From: Raineyella sp. W15-4
GTDB lineage: Bacteria; Actinomycetota; Actinomycetes; Propionibacteriales; Propionibacteriaceae
Assembly (NCBI RefSeq): GCF_033170155.1
Contig: NZ_CP137079.1
Span: 2,418,001-2,482,000 of the forward strand
Direction: 5' to 3'
Length of the DNA: 64,000 nucleotides
The notes below the pieces were generated by a model. The model did no database searches and was not told where the DNA came from. It worked only from the letters and a program-made list of their open reading frames with translations. A program made the position numbers and the translations under genes. Of the stretch, positions 27,995 to 33,057 are shown piece after piece (the first letter of the stretch is position 1; each line of letters starts with the position of its first letter).

Positions 27995-28939
27995 CTACTT
28001 GCCACCCATCAGGGCGTCCAGGCGCGGGGTCGACGAGCTGGGCTGGCCGACCGGCTGGCGCTGGTCGTGGTTCTGGGCCAGGATCGGCCGGTTGTCCGAC
28101 TCGAAGGCCGTGCCCTCCAGGGCGGCCAGCTGCTTGTGCAGGTGGTCGGTGAAGGTGGCGCGGAACTGACTCTCGTGGGCCCGCAGCTCGCTGACGTTGC
28201 GCTGCAGCTGGTCCCGTTCGTCCTCCAGACCGCTGAACAGCTCGGCGCGGCGCATGTTCACCTCGTTGTCGAGGTTGTTCGCCCGGGACTGGGCTTCGGC
28301 GAACAGTCGCTCGGCGGTGATCCGGGCCTCGGACTCGGTCCGGTCGGCGCGCGTCTGGGCGTCGGTGCTGATCTCGTGCGCCTGGCGATTGGCCATGTCG
28401 ACCGTCTCGTTCGCCTGGCGGTTCGCCGAGGCGATGGTGTCGTTGGCCTGCCGGTTGGCGGTGTCGATGGTGTCGGCCGCCTGGCGGTTGGCACTCTCGA
28501 TCGTGCTGTGCGCCTCGGCCTCGGCCTCGGTGACCAGCCGCTCGGCCTGCTCGGTGGCCATCTGGACCAGCCGGACCACCGCCGGGCTGGCCTCGGCCGA
28601 GGTGGTGACGACGACCCGCTCGACGCCGCCCTGGACGACGGAAGCCGGCGCGACCGGGACCGGCGCGGGGATCGGTGTCGGGGCCAGCACCGGCTCGGGC
28701 GCCGGGATCTCGGCCACGGGCTGGAACTGGGAGGTGGCCTGCTGGGCCTCGGCGGCGTTCTCCGCCGCCTGCTGGAGCGCCTCGACCTGGCGCCGGAGCA
28801 TCTCGTTCTCCTCCACCAACTTCGCGAAGGACGCCTCCACCCGATCGACGAAGAGGTCGACGTCGGTCACCTCGTAGCCAGCACGCCGAGCCATGTGGAA
28901 CTTGGTGTTGCGCACTTCGTCAAGCGTCAGTGTGGTCAT
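27995..28939 (-). CDS. divIVA: DivIVA/Wag31-like polar growth and division protein
   Basis: 314 residues. The N-terminal DivIVA domain is clear (LTLDEVRNTKFHMARRAGYEVTDVDLFVDRV). A Pro/Ala-rich linker (residues about 72-105) follows, then a long coiled coil. The coil contains four tandem 11-residue units beginning ANRQA (residues 150-193, DNA 28361-28492). Undecad periods form right-handed or straight coiled coils. DivIVA marks curved membrane at poles and septa and recruits envelope synthesis. GAGGTGAACGT precedes the ATG at 28939. Upstream on the same strand are yggT, sepF and ftsZ. Confidence 0.93.
   Translation of the reverse strand: MTTLTLDEVRNTKFHMARRAGYEVTDVDLFVDRVEASFAKLVEENEMLRRQVEALQQAAENAAEAQQATSQFQPVAEIPAPEPVLAPTPIPAPVPVAPASVVQGGVERVVVTTSAEASPAVVRLVQMATEQAERLVTEAEAEAHSTIESANRQAADTIDTANRQANDTIASANRQANETVDMANRQAHEISTDAQTRADRTESEARITAERLFAEAQSRANNLDNEVNMRRAELFSGLEDERDQLQRNVSELRAHESQFRATFTDHLHKQLAALEGTAFESDNRPILAQNHDQRQPVGQPSSSTPRLDALMGGK
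28361..28492 (-). repeat. Four 33-bp tandem repeats inside divIVA
   Basis: Four in-frame copies of an 11-codon unit: ANRQAADTIDT, ANRQANDTIAS, ANRQANETVDM and ANRQAHEISTD. DNA conservation is highest over the ANRQA part. Confidence 0.85.
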
Positions 28940-29182
28940 ACGTTCACCTCGAAATCGTCCAGTGGACCGGATGTCCAACGGAAAGCATTGGCCCGCCTCG
29001 GCGAGGCTACTGCGGTCGGCCAAAAAGCCTACCCCAACGGTAGCGTCCGTCTGTACGTGGCTACCGTATTCAGCCCCGGCGCGGGCCGCAACCACACCCG
29101 CCGGAAACCCTCACGCAGCACCTGAAGGTTCGGCGCCCCGCGCCGCTCCCCGGCGGCCCGGCCGGCACCCGGAAAGGCACGG
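28940..29182. other. divIVA upstream region with inverted repeat
   Basis: 243 bp between yggT and divIVA. It contains an 8-bp inverted repeat ACGGTAGC ... GCTACCGT (29037-29044 and 29060-29067), arms 23 bp apart centre to centre. That is about two helical turns, as for a dimeric regulator. TAGGCT (minus strand, about 29024-29029) may be a -10 box. No terminator for yggT is evident. Confidence 0.35.
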
Positions 29183-29482
29183 TCAGCCGGCGATCAGGAA
29201 GGCCGCGTTCAGCCGCATCAGCAGCCACACCGCGAAGAACAGCACCATGAACGACACGTCGAAGGCCATGTTGCCCATCCGGACCGGGCGGATGAACCGG
29301 CCCAGCCACTTCAGCGGCGGGTCAGTGATGCTGTAGGTGGTCTCGGCGACCACCAGGACGAGTCCCTTCGGGCGCCACTGCGGCGCCAGCACCGGCACCC
29401 AGGACAGGATCATCCGGACGAACAGCAGCGCCATGAAGAGCCACAGGACGGCGTGGACGATGAGACCGATGGTGGTCAGCAT
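29183..29482 (-). CDS. YggT-family membrane protein
   Basis: 99 residues with two hydrophobic segments (LIVHAVLWLFMALLFVRMIL and a second near the C terminus) joined by a loop with ITDPPLKWLGRFIRP. This is the single-copy YggT layout of actinobacteria. Function is unknown; YggT is conserved beside sepF and divIVA, and a role in membrane organisation at division sites is often suggested. I prefer ATG 29482 to the in-frame TTG at 29512 that overlaps the sepF stop. Confidence 0.85.
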   Translation of the reverse strand: MLTTIGLIVHAVLWLFMALLFVRMILSWVPVLAPQWRPKGLVLVVAETTYSITDPPLKWLGRFIRPVRMGNMAFDVSFMVLFFAVWLLMRLNAAFLIAG

Positions 29483-29508
29483 GGGGTTCCGATCAACAGA
29501 GTGGATGG

Positions 29509-30138
29509 TCAACTCTGATTGTAGAAGCCCTCCGCAATACGCTGTTTGTCCTCGGTCGTCACCCGCACATTGTGCGGGGAGAGCAGGAAGACGCCGTTGT
29601 CGACCTTCTCGATGGAGCCGTTCAGCCCGAAGATCAGCCCGGATGCGAAGTCGACCACCCGGCGGGCGTGGTCGTGCTCCATGAACGACAGGTTGATGAT
29701 CACCGGGAAGCCGTCGCGGAAGTTCTCCCCGATGCTGCGGGCCTCGTTGAAAGTCTTCGGGGTGATGAAGATGATCCGGTTGATGTCGGCCGTCCGAGCC
29801 GGCTCGACCGGCGGTTCCCGGTAGGGCACCGGCTCCTCGGGACGCACCGGGGAGGACACCGCGGCAGGGGTACGCCCCTGCGGACCACGTGCCGGGACCA
29901 TCTCGGTGACCTCCGTGTGCTCGTGGGACGGCTCGTCGAACTCGTCCGTGTCGTGGCGGTACAGGTCGTCGTACGCCCCGCTGTCCTCGTACGTCCCGGA
30001 CTCGTCGCCGTAGTCGTCGCCGAGCACCCGCTCGTCACCGCGGCCGTGGGCGGGCTCGTCGTCGTAGTCGTCGTAGCGATCGGTCTCCCGGGGACCCAGG
30101 CCGATCCACTCGCTGGCGCGCTTGACCCACTGAGCCAT
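29509..30138 (-). CDS. sepF: Cell division protein SepF
   Basis: 209 residues. The N terminus (MAQWVKRASEWIGL) is an amphipathic membrane-binding helix. An acidic Asp/Tyr-rich linker follows, and the C-terminal SepF domain (FNEARSIGENFRDGFPVIINL to GLNGSIEKVDNGVFLLSP) forms the FtsZ-binding dimer. In actinobacteria lacking FtsA, SepF is the membrane anchor of FtsZ. GGAGGAAGGAG precedes the ATG at 30138. The insertion sequence now lies 237 bp upstream. The gene is intact only because the first 78 bp and its upstream region lie within the duplicated target. A truncated copy of its start is at 32104-32181. Confidence 0.95.
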   Translation of the reverse strand: MAQWVKRASEWIGLGPRETDRYDDYDDEPAHGRGDERVLGDDYGDESGTYEDSGAYDDLYRHDTDEFDEPSHEHTEVTEMVPARGPQGRTPAAVSSPVRPEEPVPYREPPVEPARTADINRIIFITPKTFNEARSIGENFRDGFPVIINLSFMEHDHARRVVDFASGLIFGLNGSIEKVDNGVFLLSPHNVRVTTEDKQRIAEGFYNQS

Positions 30139-30197
30139 CCGAGCTCCTTCCTCCGTGTCGTCCACCGCGGGATGCACCCGGGCATGCAGGGCGTCCG

Positions 30198-30210
30198 GTC
30201 ACTCAGTGAC
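30198..30210. promoter_or_regulatory. 13-bp palindrome upstream of sepF
   Basis: GTCACTCAGTGAC, 60 bp upstream of the sepF start, next to a minus-strand TATCGT that could be a -10. It is duplicated at 32241-32253. A possible sepF operator; weak evidence. Confidence 0.3.
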
Positions 30211-30270
30211 GATACCGTGCGGCCCCGATCACCCGGGGAAACCGGCCGGCGACACGCCCGCCGAGCGGCG

Positions 30271-30376
30271 TCAGTCCAGCCAGATCAGGCCGAGCTGGCG
30301 TCCCGCCGCCGCCCCGTCGCGGCGATGGCTGTGCAGGGAGGAGGTCGTCAGGGTGCACGGCCCGATGTACGCCACC
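30271..30376 (-). pseudogene. Truncated 3' copy of pgeF
   Basis: The last 35 codons of the laccase-domain gene, including the TGA at 30271, cut off by the IS at 30377. One substitution relative to the intact gene changes Val to Ile in the final LVWLD. It is non-functional and is a by-product of the target duplication. Confidence 0.9.
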
Positions 30377-30389
30377 CGAGTTCACACAT
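30375..30389 (+). repeat. Left terminal inverted repeat of the IS
   Basis: CCCGAGTTCACACAT, matching the right end (32090-32104, complement CCCGAGTTCACTCAT) at 14 of 15 positions. The outer CCC could be target DNA. Confidence 0.8.
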
Positions 30390-32103
30390 TGGGGTTAGTG
30401 ACCCCTGATTTTGTCGAGAATGGCTTGGACGTGGTCGGGGATCTCGGGCTCCAGGGTGAGGTGCTGGCCGTTGATCGTGACGGTCGCTGACCGGATCGGG
30501 CGCAGGGTCTGGACGAGTTTGCGGATGGTGACCCCGGACGCCTGTTGGAGGTGACGGCTGATCGCCAGCGCGGCGAACACGATGGTCAGGTGGGCCTCGA
30601 TCGTGTCCCGGGTCTGGACGAACACCGGGCGGGCCCGCAGATCTGACTTGGTCAACCGGAACGACGCCTCGACCTGCCACAGGTCGTGGTAGGCCGTGAT
30701 GACGGCCTGGCCGTCCATCGTGGCGACCGGCAGGTTCGTCACGTAGCCCTTCAGGCCGGCGAGCCGGCGGGCCCGGTCGATGGTGTCCTGGTTCAGCTGC
30801 TTGTCGGCACCGGCGACCTTCAGGAACCGGGCCCGCGAGACAGGCGCCTTGCCGGCGGCGATCTTCTCCGCCCGGGCGATCTGGGCATCGATCGCCTTGT
30901 CGTCACGCTTACGGCGCTTGAACGAGTACTGGTAGACGATCCGGCGTTCCCTGGCCGCCGACCCGGTCCCCATCACCCGACTCGATTCGAGGATCTGCCC
31001 GTCGGCGAACCAGTCTCCGTGACGTTCGAAGTGGTCGGCCAGGTCATAGGGCGCCTTCGTCAGCCGGGAGCCGACGATGAACGAGTACCCGGCGTCCTCC
31101 AGGGCGTTCAGGTTGCCCGCCGACAACATCCCGGCATCGGCGACCACCACGAGCTCGGCCAGTCCGTGACGGTCCCGGAAGGCCTTCAGGACCGGGATCA
31201 GGGTCTTGGTCTCCCCGATGCTGCCGTCGAACAGGTGGACCTCGAGCGGGAACCCGGACGGGTCGACCAGCAGCCCGACCTGAACCTGCGGATCGACCCT
31301 GTGCTCCTTGCTCATCCCGACCCGACGCAGGTCGTCCTCGTTGTCGTTCTCGAAGTGGAGGGTCGTGACGTCGTAGAGGATCAGGCCACCGGTGCCCTTG
31401 ACGGCAGCCGAGTAGGCGGCGCAAGCGCGCGCCAGGCGGTCGCGGTAGTCGCGTTCCTTGACCCGGCGCAGGCACCGGTAGAGCGTGTTCAACGCCGGCG
31501 CCGCGACACCGATGTCGTCCAACACGCGCAGCGTGTCGCGTTTCGAGGTCGGCTCGATGATCCGCGCGCACACCAACGCCCGGAACGTGTCGTCCGCCAA
31601 GGCCTCGAACCCGAGCCGGCCATAGGCCTCGACCAGTAGATCCCACAACAGCAGTGAGGCCGTCCCCGAGACCCGCCCGCCGGCGGCCGTCTGGCGGGGC
31701 CGCCCACCGGTCGGTTCGACCGACAGCGTGTCGGCGGGACGGGTCCAGTCGGCAACATCGCCCAGCCGCGCCCCAGCCTGTTCGACCGGCCCCAGGTCCA
31801 GCATGTCCTGACCATCGGGGACCAGCCGTTCGCGGGCCGCGGCCATCAACAACCCCAACTCGGCGTCGGTATGCGCCGAACCGACGTGATCGACCGCGAC
31901 GACCTGGCGGCCCTCACGCGTGACGATCTGAACCGCGACGGCTCCCGACGCGGTCCGGACCTTCCGTACGAACCGGGACCCCACCCGGGCAGACTACCGG
32001 CCCCCAAGGAGTTCTTAGTAACCCCTTTCACCACCCCGGACGGGAGAATCACCTAGCCAGACAAGCATTCACTGCCGAATCGACACGAGATGAGTGAACT
32101 CGG
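30377..32103 (-). mobile_element. IS1634-family insertion sequence
   Basis: About 1.73 kb (1727 bp; 1730 bp if the outer CCC/GGG belong to it) with 15-bp imperfect terminal inverted repeats and one transposase gene filling 92% of its length. It is flanked by a 313-316 bp direct duplication of host DNA. Long, variable target duplications are a known peculiarity of this family (IS1634 of Mycoplasma mycoides, IS1549 of Mycobacterium smegmatis). It lies between pgeF and sepF in the cell-division cluster, with its transposase in the same direction as the host operon. The left non-coding end is 18 bp, the right 119 bp. Confidence 0.92.
30395..31984 (-). CDS. IS1634-family DDE transposase
   Basis: 529 residues. 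The start RKVRTASGAVAVQIV is typical of the family. The catalytic triad can be placed at D205 (YDVTTLHFE), D283 (VVADAGM) and E439 (YHDLWQVEASFR, the IS4-superfamily Y-R-E region). No frameshift or stop is present, so it appears intact and potentially active. The GTG start at 31984 has no clear ribosome binding site; the sequence just upstream even contains CTCCTT, an anti-Shine-Dalgarno-like stretch. Transcription runs towards sepF. Confidence 0.93.
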   Translation of the reverse strand: MGSRFVRKVRTASGAVAVQIVTREGRQVVAVDHVGSAHTDAELGLLMAAARERLVPDGQDMLDLGPVEQAGARLGDVADWTRPADTLSVEPTGGRPRQTAAGGRVSGTASLLLWDLLVEAYGRLGFEALADDTFRALVCARIIEPTSKRDTLRVLDDIGVAAPALNTLYRCLRRVKERDYRDRLARACAAYSAAVKGTGGLILYDVTTLHFENDNEDDLRRVGMSKEHRVDPQVQVGLLVDPSGFPLEVHLFDGSIGETKTLIPVLKAFRDRHGLAELVVVADAGMLSAGNLNALEDAGYSFIVGSRLTKAPYDLADHFERHGDWFADGQILESSRVMGTGSAARERRIVYQYSFKRRKRDDKAIDAQIARAEKIAAGKAPVSRARFLKVAGADKQLNQDTIDRARRLAGLKGYVTNLPVATMDGQAVITAYHDLWQVEASFRLTKSDLRARPVFVQTRDTIEAHLTIVFAALAISRHLQQASGVTIRKLVQTLRPIRSATVTINGQHLTLEPEIPDHVQAILDKIRGH

Positions 32104-32104
32104 G
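32090..32104 (-). repeat. Right terminal inverted repeat of the IS
   Basis: Read outward-in on the minus strand as CCCGAGTTCACTCAT; it pairs with the left end at 30375-30389. Confidence 0.8.
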
Positions 32105-32181
32105 TCGTAGTCGTCGTAGCGATCGGTCTCCCGGGGACCCAGGCCGATCCACTCGCTGGCGCGCTTGACCCACTGAGCCAT
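32104..32181 (-). pseudogene. Truncated 5' copy of sepF
   Basis: The first 26 codons of sepF with its ribosome binding site, interrupted by the IS right end at 32103. Translation would run into IS sequence. Confidence 0.9.
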
Positions 32182-32419
32182 CCGAGCTCCTTCCTCCGTG
32201 TCGTCCACCGCGGGATGCACCCGGGCATGCAGGGCGTCCGGTCACTCAGTGACGATACCGTGCGGCCCCGATCACCCGGGGAAACCGGCCGGCGACACGC
32301 CCGCCGAGCGGCGTCAGTCCAGCCAGACCAGGCCGAGCTGGCGTCCCGCCGCCGCCCCGTCGCGGCGATGGCTGTGCAGGGAGGAGGTCGTCAGGGTGCA
32401 CGGCCCGATGTACGCCACC
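32104..32419. repeat. Right copy of the 316-bp direct repeat flanking the IS
   Basis: Partner of 30061-30376; see that entry. It supplies the intact 3' end of pgeF and leaves a truncated sepF start (32104-32181) facing the IS. Confidence 0.93.
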
Positions 32420-33057
32420 GGGACGGCCGCGGCCCGCAGCTGGGCCGCCACCCCGGCGGTGAGGTCGATCGCCGGGGTGCCCCAGCGGGTGGTGCCCCGG
32501 GTCTGGGGCACCAGGGCGGCGGCCGCCTCGGCCATCTCGGCCGGCACCTCGTAGCAGTCCCCGTGGATGTGCGGGCCCACCCAGGCGGTCAGCTCCCGCG
32601 CCCCCAGGTCGCGCATCGCGGCGACGGTGGCGGCGACGATCCCGCCGAGGACACCCGCCCGGCCGGCGTGTGCCGCCCCGATCACCCGTACGGCCGGATC
32701 AGCCAGGAGGACCGGGACGCAGTCCGCCGCGCGGACCGCGATGGCCGTCCTCCGCAGTCCGGGCCCGGCGACCAGTGCGTCACCCTCGGGCTGGGCGTCC
32801 TCCCGCCAGCCGGCGAGGAAGTCCTCGTCGACGACGTGCACCGTGGCGGAGTGCACCTGGTGCAGGGTGACCACCCGGTCCAGGCCGGCATCGGCGCGGA
32901 CCCGGCGGAGGTTCTCGGCGCGGGTCTCCGGTCCCCCGTCGAGGGCGCCGAAGCTCAGCGATCCGGGCGCCAAGGTGACCCCGCCGTCACGGTCGGTGAA
33001 GCCGATGCCGATCCCGCGCGCCGGCCCGTCGTCGGGTCGCTTGAGGAAGTCCCACAC
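32314..33057 (-). CDS. pgeF: PgeF/YfiH multicopper-oxidase-like (laccase domain) protein
   Basis: 247 residues. Conserved metal-binding motifs of the DUF152/YfiH family are present: TLHQVHSATVHVV, RAADCVPVLL and GAAHAGRAG. E. coli YfiH (PgeF) edits peptidoglycan precursors wrongly carrying Ser, and human LACC1 has purine nucleoside activities, so the enzymatic role is debated. The gene starts 9 bp after the ftsZ stop, the usual actinobacterial arrangement. Its last 35 codons lie in the right copy of the IS target duplication, and the gene is complete. Confidence 0.9.
   Translation of the reverse strand: MWDFLKRPDDGPARGIGIGFTDRDGGVTLAPGSLSFGALDGGPETRAENLRRVRADAGLDRVVTLHQVHSATVHVVDEDFLAGWREDAQPEGDALVAGPGLRRTAIAVRAADCVPVLLADPAVRVIGAAHAGRAGVLGGIVAATVAAMRDLGARELTAWVGPHIHGDCYEVPAEMAEAAAALVPQTRGTTRWGTPAIDLTAGVAAQLRAAAVPVAYIGPCTLTTSSLHSHRRDGAAAGRQLGLVWLD

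Follow-up and report, generated by a model that had tools for sequence, protein, structure and literature searches.

An IS1634-family element with a 313-bp target-site duplication in Raineyella sp. W15-4, and short and long duplications among its identical copies

The element and its duplication at the pgeF-sepF junction

A 64,000-nucleotide stretch of the genome of Raineyella sp. W15-4 (contig NZ_CP137079.1, positions 2,418,001 to 2,482,000), referred to here as the window, carries an insertion sequence (IS) of the IS1634 family between the genes sepF and pgeF. The element is bracketed by two copies of a 313-bp segment, which we read as the target-site duplication (TSD) made at its insertion. 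In most DDE transposases the spacing of the two cuts in the target is short and constant. The element and its duplication comprise the following features, given in window coordinates.

30375 to 32104, minus strand (that of the transposase gene): IS1634-family insertion sequence of 1,730 bp, with ends CCCGAGTTCAC...GTGAACTCGGG
30395 to 31984, minus strand: DDE transposase of the IS1634 family, 529 amino acids, the single open reading frame (ORF) of the element
30375 to 30389, plus strand: terminal inverted repeat adjoining the 3' end of the transposase gene, matching the other end at 14 of 15 positions
32090 to 32104, minus strand: terminal inverted repeat 5' (upstream) of the transposase gene
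30062 to 30374: left TSD copy, 313 bp, containing the working sepF start with its upstream region and a dead pgeF 3' remnant
32105 to 32417: right TSD copy, 313 bp, containing the working pgeF 3' end and a dead sepF start

The direct repeat (30061-30376 and 32104-32419, spacing 2043) is identical at 315 of 316 positions, the sole mismatch being T30285 against C32328. The element ends are ambiguous by at most 3 bp, and CCC...GGG boundaries were set by aligning three copies, which gives a TSD of 313 bp. A near-exact repeat of this length abutting both ends of the element rules out chance, and with only one base difference between its two copies the insertion looks recent. An original prediction, made from the letters of the window, had described a 315/316 repeat around an element of about 1.73 kb with boundaries readable to within 3 bp, 15-bp inverted ends and one intact DDE transposase. 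All of this is borne out: the element measures 1,730 bp, the TSD 313 bp (316 with the end ambiguity), the inverted ends agree at 14 of 15 positions when read directly (a repeat finder gives 16 nt at 94%), and the transposase is the 529-residue ORF.

The membership in the IS1634 family that was also predicted is supported by a match of transposase residues 29-526 to the NCBIfam model NF033559 (385 bits against a cut-off of 100, E 6e-115); the protein also matches Pfam DDE_Tnp_1. The length of 1,730 bp and the end CCCGAGTT... fit the family criteria of 1,500-2,000 bp and C-----YT. In an alignment of 66 relatives D205, D283 and E439 are invariant and the second spacer is long. We assign these residues as the putative DDE triad from the published order of motifs. 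In the YREK motif of the same relatives Y432 is conserved in at least 90%, an invariant Leu435 replaces the arginine, and E439 and K446 are invariant. In the accessible part of a 2008 study the family is described as 1,500-2,000 bp long, with AT-rich duplications of 5-6 bp and a YREK arginine that is mostly missing (PMC2266710). A sequence search of solved structures with the transposase gave only two chance-like matches (E 0.1 and 0.33).

Other copies, the survey and the empty sites

The genome, a single contig of 3,962,933 bases, holds two further copies that are 100% identical over 1,727 query bases, so the description of the element as single-copy did not survive. Copy B (~2.0025 Mb) has an exact 59-bp TSD, or 60 bp with the end ambiguity. 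Copy C (~0.602 Mb) has a 5-bp TSD, CCCGG in the orientation of the transposase, and no long flanking repeat within ~8 kb on either side. As the three copies are 100% identical and their TSDs differ, duplications of 5, 59 and 313 bp accompany one and the same protein and set of ends. One transposase is thereby shown to give both short (5 bp) and long TSDs. More distant relatives lie in the same genome: an IS1634-family element with ~70% DNA identity and no detected TSD stands ~0.2 kb from copy C (L015, G000 604048-605676), and a graveyard-like cluster of family pieces, ~67-73% identical to the window element, lies at G000 ~3761505-3768759 (L004, L007-L013). A second genome of the genus has pieces with 88-92% protein identity to the transposase, split by ~2.3 kb (G001:C1:23016-26498), which indicates that the element or a close kin was present in the genus earlier.

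The survey drew on named contigs (64 loci) and on actinobacterial genomes. Relatives were found in 36 of 391 genomes of the order, 13 of 393 of the class, 9 of 249 and 19 of 248 of two other orders, 14 of 39 of a genus and 15 of 56 of a family; these sets overlap, their E-value limits vary, and the places retrieved are only part of those located. Ends were defined by inverted repeats of the form CC.G..., and the flanks were then compared. A first batch of 184 matches gave 132 rows and a second of 63 gave 58, for a total of 190 rows and 150 distinct insertions after the exclusion of rows without definable ends and of repeats of one insertion. Excluding a further seven with N and three with misplaced ends (L053, L086, L124) left 140 insertions.

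Long TSDs of 14-365 bp (median 84, quartiles 46-141) flank 67 of the 140 insertions and are exact in 62 of these. The remaining insertions have TSDs of 5 bp (30 copies), 4 bp (three), 6 bp (one) and 11 bp (one), or no TSD (38, of which 30 have at least 1 kb on both flanks). When the right flank was read from a shifted position as a control, a 5-bp identity appeared in 0-2 of the 140 (mean 0.7). Sixteen near-identical families (at least 99%) hold 51 insertions, of which 25 have long TSDs, 21 have 5 bp, one each has 4 and 11 bp, and three lack a TSD at the ends. Both modes occur in four of these families, with TSDs of 5/59/313 bp (that of the window), 5/64/128/365 bp, 5/14/54 bp and 5/5/72 bp, and some families have 5 bp only, for example in five of five and in three of three copies. 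Fourteen loci on Rhodococcus plasmids, drawn from 32 records and kept outside the 140, gave 11 copies with definable ends: seven have long TSDs (147, 102, 93, 61, 54, 47 and 27 bp), one has 5 bp and three have none, among them L281, which spans 2,659 bp and whose ends may be misplaced.

Three insertions in other actinobacteria depart from this pattern in having unequal flanking repeats. In L066 and L086 the left repeat stops 48 and 31 bp short of the element, and the right one begins directly at it; L066 was scored as having no TSD despite a 180-bp repeat offset from the element. The flank of L086 also contains N. In L053 a 177-base flanking match is only 81% identical. Control of the mode by clade was considered and set aside, since the labels cluster on the transposase tree but change often and a single enzyme does both; the clustering itself (13 changes against 21.6 shuffled for the long label, 8 against 13.7 for the 5-bp label, 0 of 500 shuffles as low in both) comes from the 64 proteins of the first survey and predates later corrections.

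Target deletions were not seen as a class among the 51 near-identical copies, and 25 long TSDs against three copies without one make equally frequent deletions unlikely. These counts bear on the possibility that the two ends join different sister chromosomes at shifted positions and that the product carrying the duplication is recovered. Reversed-ends transposition of maize Ac, in the portion of the report that could be consulted, yields tandem duplications together with reciprocal deletions (PMC3744419). Bridging of sister duplexes would likewise predict reciprocal deletions, of which no equal class was seen, and unlimited lengths, whereas the longest TSD is 365 bp, and this holds as well for the 72 insertions that have 2,800 bp or more of flank on each side. 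We regard it as improbable.

Empty sites tie the duplication to the insertion. In three other genomes of the genus (G003, G001 and G002; 86, 78 and 75% identical over 953 queried bases) the sepF-pgeF locus is unbroken, and none of the three has a second long match to the 313-bp segment. A model empty site, in which the window flanks are joined, aligns across the junction in each. Inside the segment the largest indels measure 18 bases (G003) and 14 bases (G002), and an 8-base gap lies six bases beyond the junction in G002, as expected at such divergence. Since the segment stands only once, in an intact locus, in all three relatives, it was duplicated as the element inserted, which supports the original prediction that the repeat is a TSD. 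At the mismatch position G003 agrees with the right copy, so the left copy, with its dead pgeF remnant, has mutated since insertion. For the plasmid TSDs of 147, 102 and 93 bp, IS-free relatives are each single-copy and gapless at the junction (two relatives in the 93-bp case; small indels nearby in the 147-bp case). For two of the plasmid copies without a TSD, L274 and L279, an IS-free relative of the left flank was not found.

IS copies are repeats and are able to confuse an assembly, and a duplication might in principle be older than the insertion beside it. An artefact or a pre-existing duplication would nevertheless have to be squared with single-copy empty sites for four long TSDs (313, 147, 102 and 93 bp), with repeats that stop at the IS ends in 67 insertions, and with 5-bp copies in the same assemblies that serve as an internal control. 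The chance of either is close to negligible, and it is virtually certain that the window element belongs to the family and is flanked by a true target-site duplication.

Junction sequences and the joining of the two ends

The 5-bp TSDs fit YCNGR in 21 of 30 cases. Base preferences also appear at the 134 junctions of long TSDs, where G at -1 reaches 57% against a background of 33% (p 2e-8), T at +1 51% against 18% (p 1e-17), C at +2 49% against 31% (p 1.5e-5) and A at +5 38% against 18% (p 4e-8), while G at +4, +3 and +6 of these junctions stays at background level. The insertions with short and with long TSDs belong in part to different clades. The preferences imply that each end selects its own half-site (G|TC..A), and the A at +5 suggests that each end may still read a 5-bp register even though the other strand is joined far away.

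Long duplications might also arise by recombination between two nearby insertions, each with a 5-bp TSD, that leaves a single element with the intervening DNA on either side. Identical copies are indeed present in one genome. Such recombination predicts a full YCNGR site at each long junction; of 136 long junctions 12 have a site of this type, compared with 21 of 31 short TSDs (counted before three miscalled copies were removed). It also gives no reason for a ceiling near 365 bp, and we consider it very improbable.

TSD lengths above 14 bp fit an exponential distribution (Kolmogorov-Smirnov (KS) p 0.84, with the offset derived from the data). Helical phasing of the lengths was looked for and rejected, a 10.5-bp periodicity being absent (p 0.46). 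An unusual base composition of the duplicated DNA was rejected as well (GC 0.636 inside against 0.640 in the flanks, first 44 long copies).

We favour a reading in which the two element ends are joined to the target in two separate strand transfers, and would give it a probability of about 65% on the patterns in these sequences. The ends would join opposite target strands, each at its own half-site. If the second transfer followed immediately within the same target complex, a 5-bp gap would result. If it were delayed, the target 3'-OH freed by the first joining could prime strand-displacement synthesis, the second end would attack further along, and the entire stretch would be copied. That such synthesis takes place between the two transfers is a more tentative proposal, to which we give a little less than an even chance. 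Sequential joining predicts that only duplications arise, that the shortest are close to 5 bp and that the lengths follow a waiting-length distribution.

The main competitor is a wide stagger made at once, in which the ends attack opposite strands far apart on a target that is unwound (at a replication fork, an R-loop or a transcription bubble) or looped, and gap filling gives the long TSD. This needs no additional step, and both the separate half-site at each junction and the lack of helical periodicity agree with it. The duplicated stretches are not AT-rich, as the GC values above indicate, which speaks against unwinding of this kind. The order of joining matters too: a duplication requires that the joints be staggered in one direction and the opposite order gives a deletion, so models with free order predict many deletions. 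With separated strands either order of attack would be expected, and about half of the products would be deletions. Because the near-identical families hold 25 long duplications and only three copies without a TSD at the ends, we prefer sequential joining and judge the wide stagger unlikely.

Several points weigh against joining in two separate transfers. No transposition event was observed. No TSD was detected in 38 of the 140 copies, and deletions are possible there; of the three such copies in near-identical families, L066 and L134 have repeats offset from the ends and L044 has none. Selection against deletions could also deplete the deletion class. The TSDs of 4, 6, 11 and 14 bp, together with the 13-bp duplication given for a fresh IS1549 insertion in the accessible part of its report (PMC10066036), may form a continuum and not two modes. 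A log-normal distribution fits the TSD lengths as well as the exponential does. The two junctions of long TSDs differ only slightly (T at +1, 57% against 43%), where ordered ends are predicted.

For the actinobacterial branch of the family, sequential joining can be put in a more specific form, which we offer with less confidence than its parts. In a coupled mode both ends would join a single palindromic YCNGR site, giving 5 bp, and an uncoupled mode would use a separate half-site for each end, with a 5-bp register and limited one-way synthesis, giving ~14-365 bp without matching deletions. As a weak lead, elements oriented in the direction of the replication fork may have longer duplications. 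In complete genomes the median long TSD is 128 bp for co-directional copies (n=17) and 75 bp for head-on copies (n=17), with p 0.054, or 0.031 and 0.017 without near-terminus copies; an earlier value of 0.021 preceded the removal of copies with N and the addition of three (63, 150 and 180 bp). The hypothesis was formed on part of the same data, and orientation was assigned on the assumption of a terminus opposite dnaA, with rounded sizes for six of the genomes. Further complete genomes with a usable copy numbered 0 in the genus set and three in the family set (one long TSD). Draft genomes oriented by GC skew, a method that was correct in 15 of 20 known cases and in 40 of 60 with shorter flanks, gave no clear support for the length effect. 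An early hint that the mode itself, 5 bp or long, follows fork orientation vanished with more data (Fisher p 1.0) and was dropped.

Flanking genes and known elements of the family

The genes on either side and their duplicated edges are as follows.

29509 to 30138, minus strand: sepF, intact (Pfam SepF); its likely ATG, our choice within the longer ORF 29509-30177, falls in the left TSD copy
32314 to 33057, minus strand: pgeF, intact, with its stop codon within the right TSD copy
30271 to 30374, minus strand: pgeF remnant in the left TSD copy (final codons and stop), with the mismatch at 30285 changing Val to Ile
32105 to 32181, minus strand: remnant of the sepF start in the right TSD copy, reading into the IS end and placed by the 2043 offset from the left copy

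The pgeF product scores above the cut-off of Pfam PF02578 and reaches 124.5 bits with TIGR00726, below its cut-off of 141.15. With the insertion removed the gap between sepF and pgeF is 132 bp, the spacing that had been predicted. The TSD covers this gap together with the sepF start and the pgeF end, and both genes are whole because the duplication spans the gap and both gene edges. The insertion adjoins what appear to be division-region genes (window 27995-33057): pgeF, sepF, a short ORF at 29183-29512, which we take to resemble YggT, and a coiled-coil ORF at 27995-29095, presumably similar to DivIVA. Elsewhere, a 23-base exact match to the element at 1849-1871 falls within the ORF 1070-1996, which we take to resemble RapZ, and is regarded as chance.

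Long, variable duplications were reportedly described for IS1549 of Mycobacterium smegmatis in 1998, and long, variable direct repeats are said to have been described for IS1634 of Mycoplasma mycoides in 1999. IS1549, of the same family, and IS1634, the founder of the family, resemble the window element in this trait, a likeness drawn from their descriptions and not from their sequences. Mycoplasma mycoides is AT-rich, whereas the half-site targets of the present survey are G+C-rich. In the 2008 study, as far as its text was accessible, IS1549 and IS1634 are the named exceptions in the family, with duplications of 8-514 bp together, and a mechanistic model for their long variable duplications had not yet been proposed (PMC2266710). 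IS1634 is 1,872 bp long according to the part of its source that was available (PMC1798306). Ordinary members of the family have TSDs of 5-6 bp, comparable to the 5 bp of copy C; a fresh insertion of ISGka5 of Geobacillus made a 6-bp TSD in the accessible part of its report (PMC8024623). Among the three identical Raineyella copies this family-typical length is seen once (5 bp), the others having 59 and 313 bp, and the variation in length among copies of one element, the trait of the IS1549/IS1634 type, is therefore present. The targets of ordinary members are AT-rich and of 5-6 bp, whereas in our survey most of the 5-bp TSDs fit YCNGR and long TSDs make up 67 of the 102. Among the literature matches listed, which consist of titles and the starts of abstracts with most subscription papers outside their scope, there was neither a report of identical copies using both the 5-bp and the long mode nor a later model for long duplications. 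The window element belongs to the known elements of the IS1549/IS1634 type, and the statistics on its two modes are the new addition.

The insertion in the window illustrates how genes at a landing site, here sepF and pgeF, can be left whole by a long duplication. The finding is more useful than was first claimed, since the copies needed for comparison are present in the genome itself. Identical elements with TSDs of 5, 59 and 313 bp, together with the empty-site controls and the 67 lengths, make the question of how these transposases cut their target testable.

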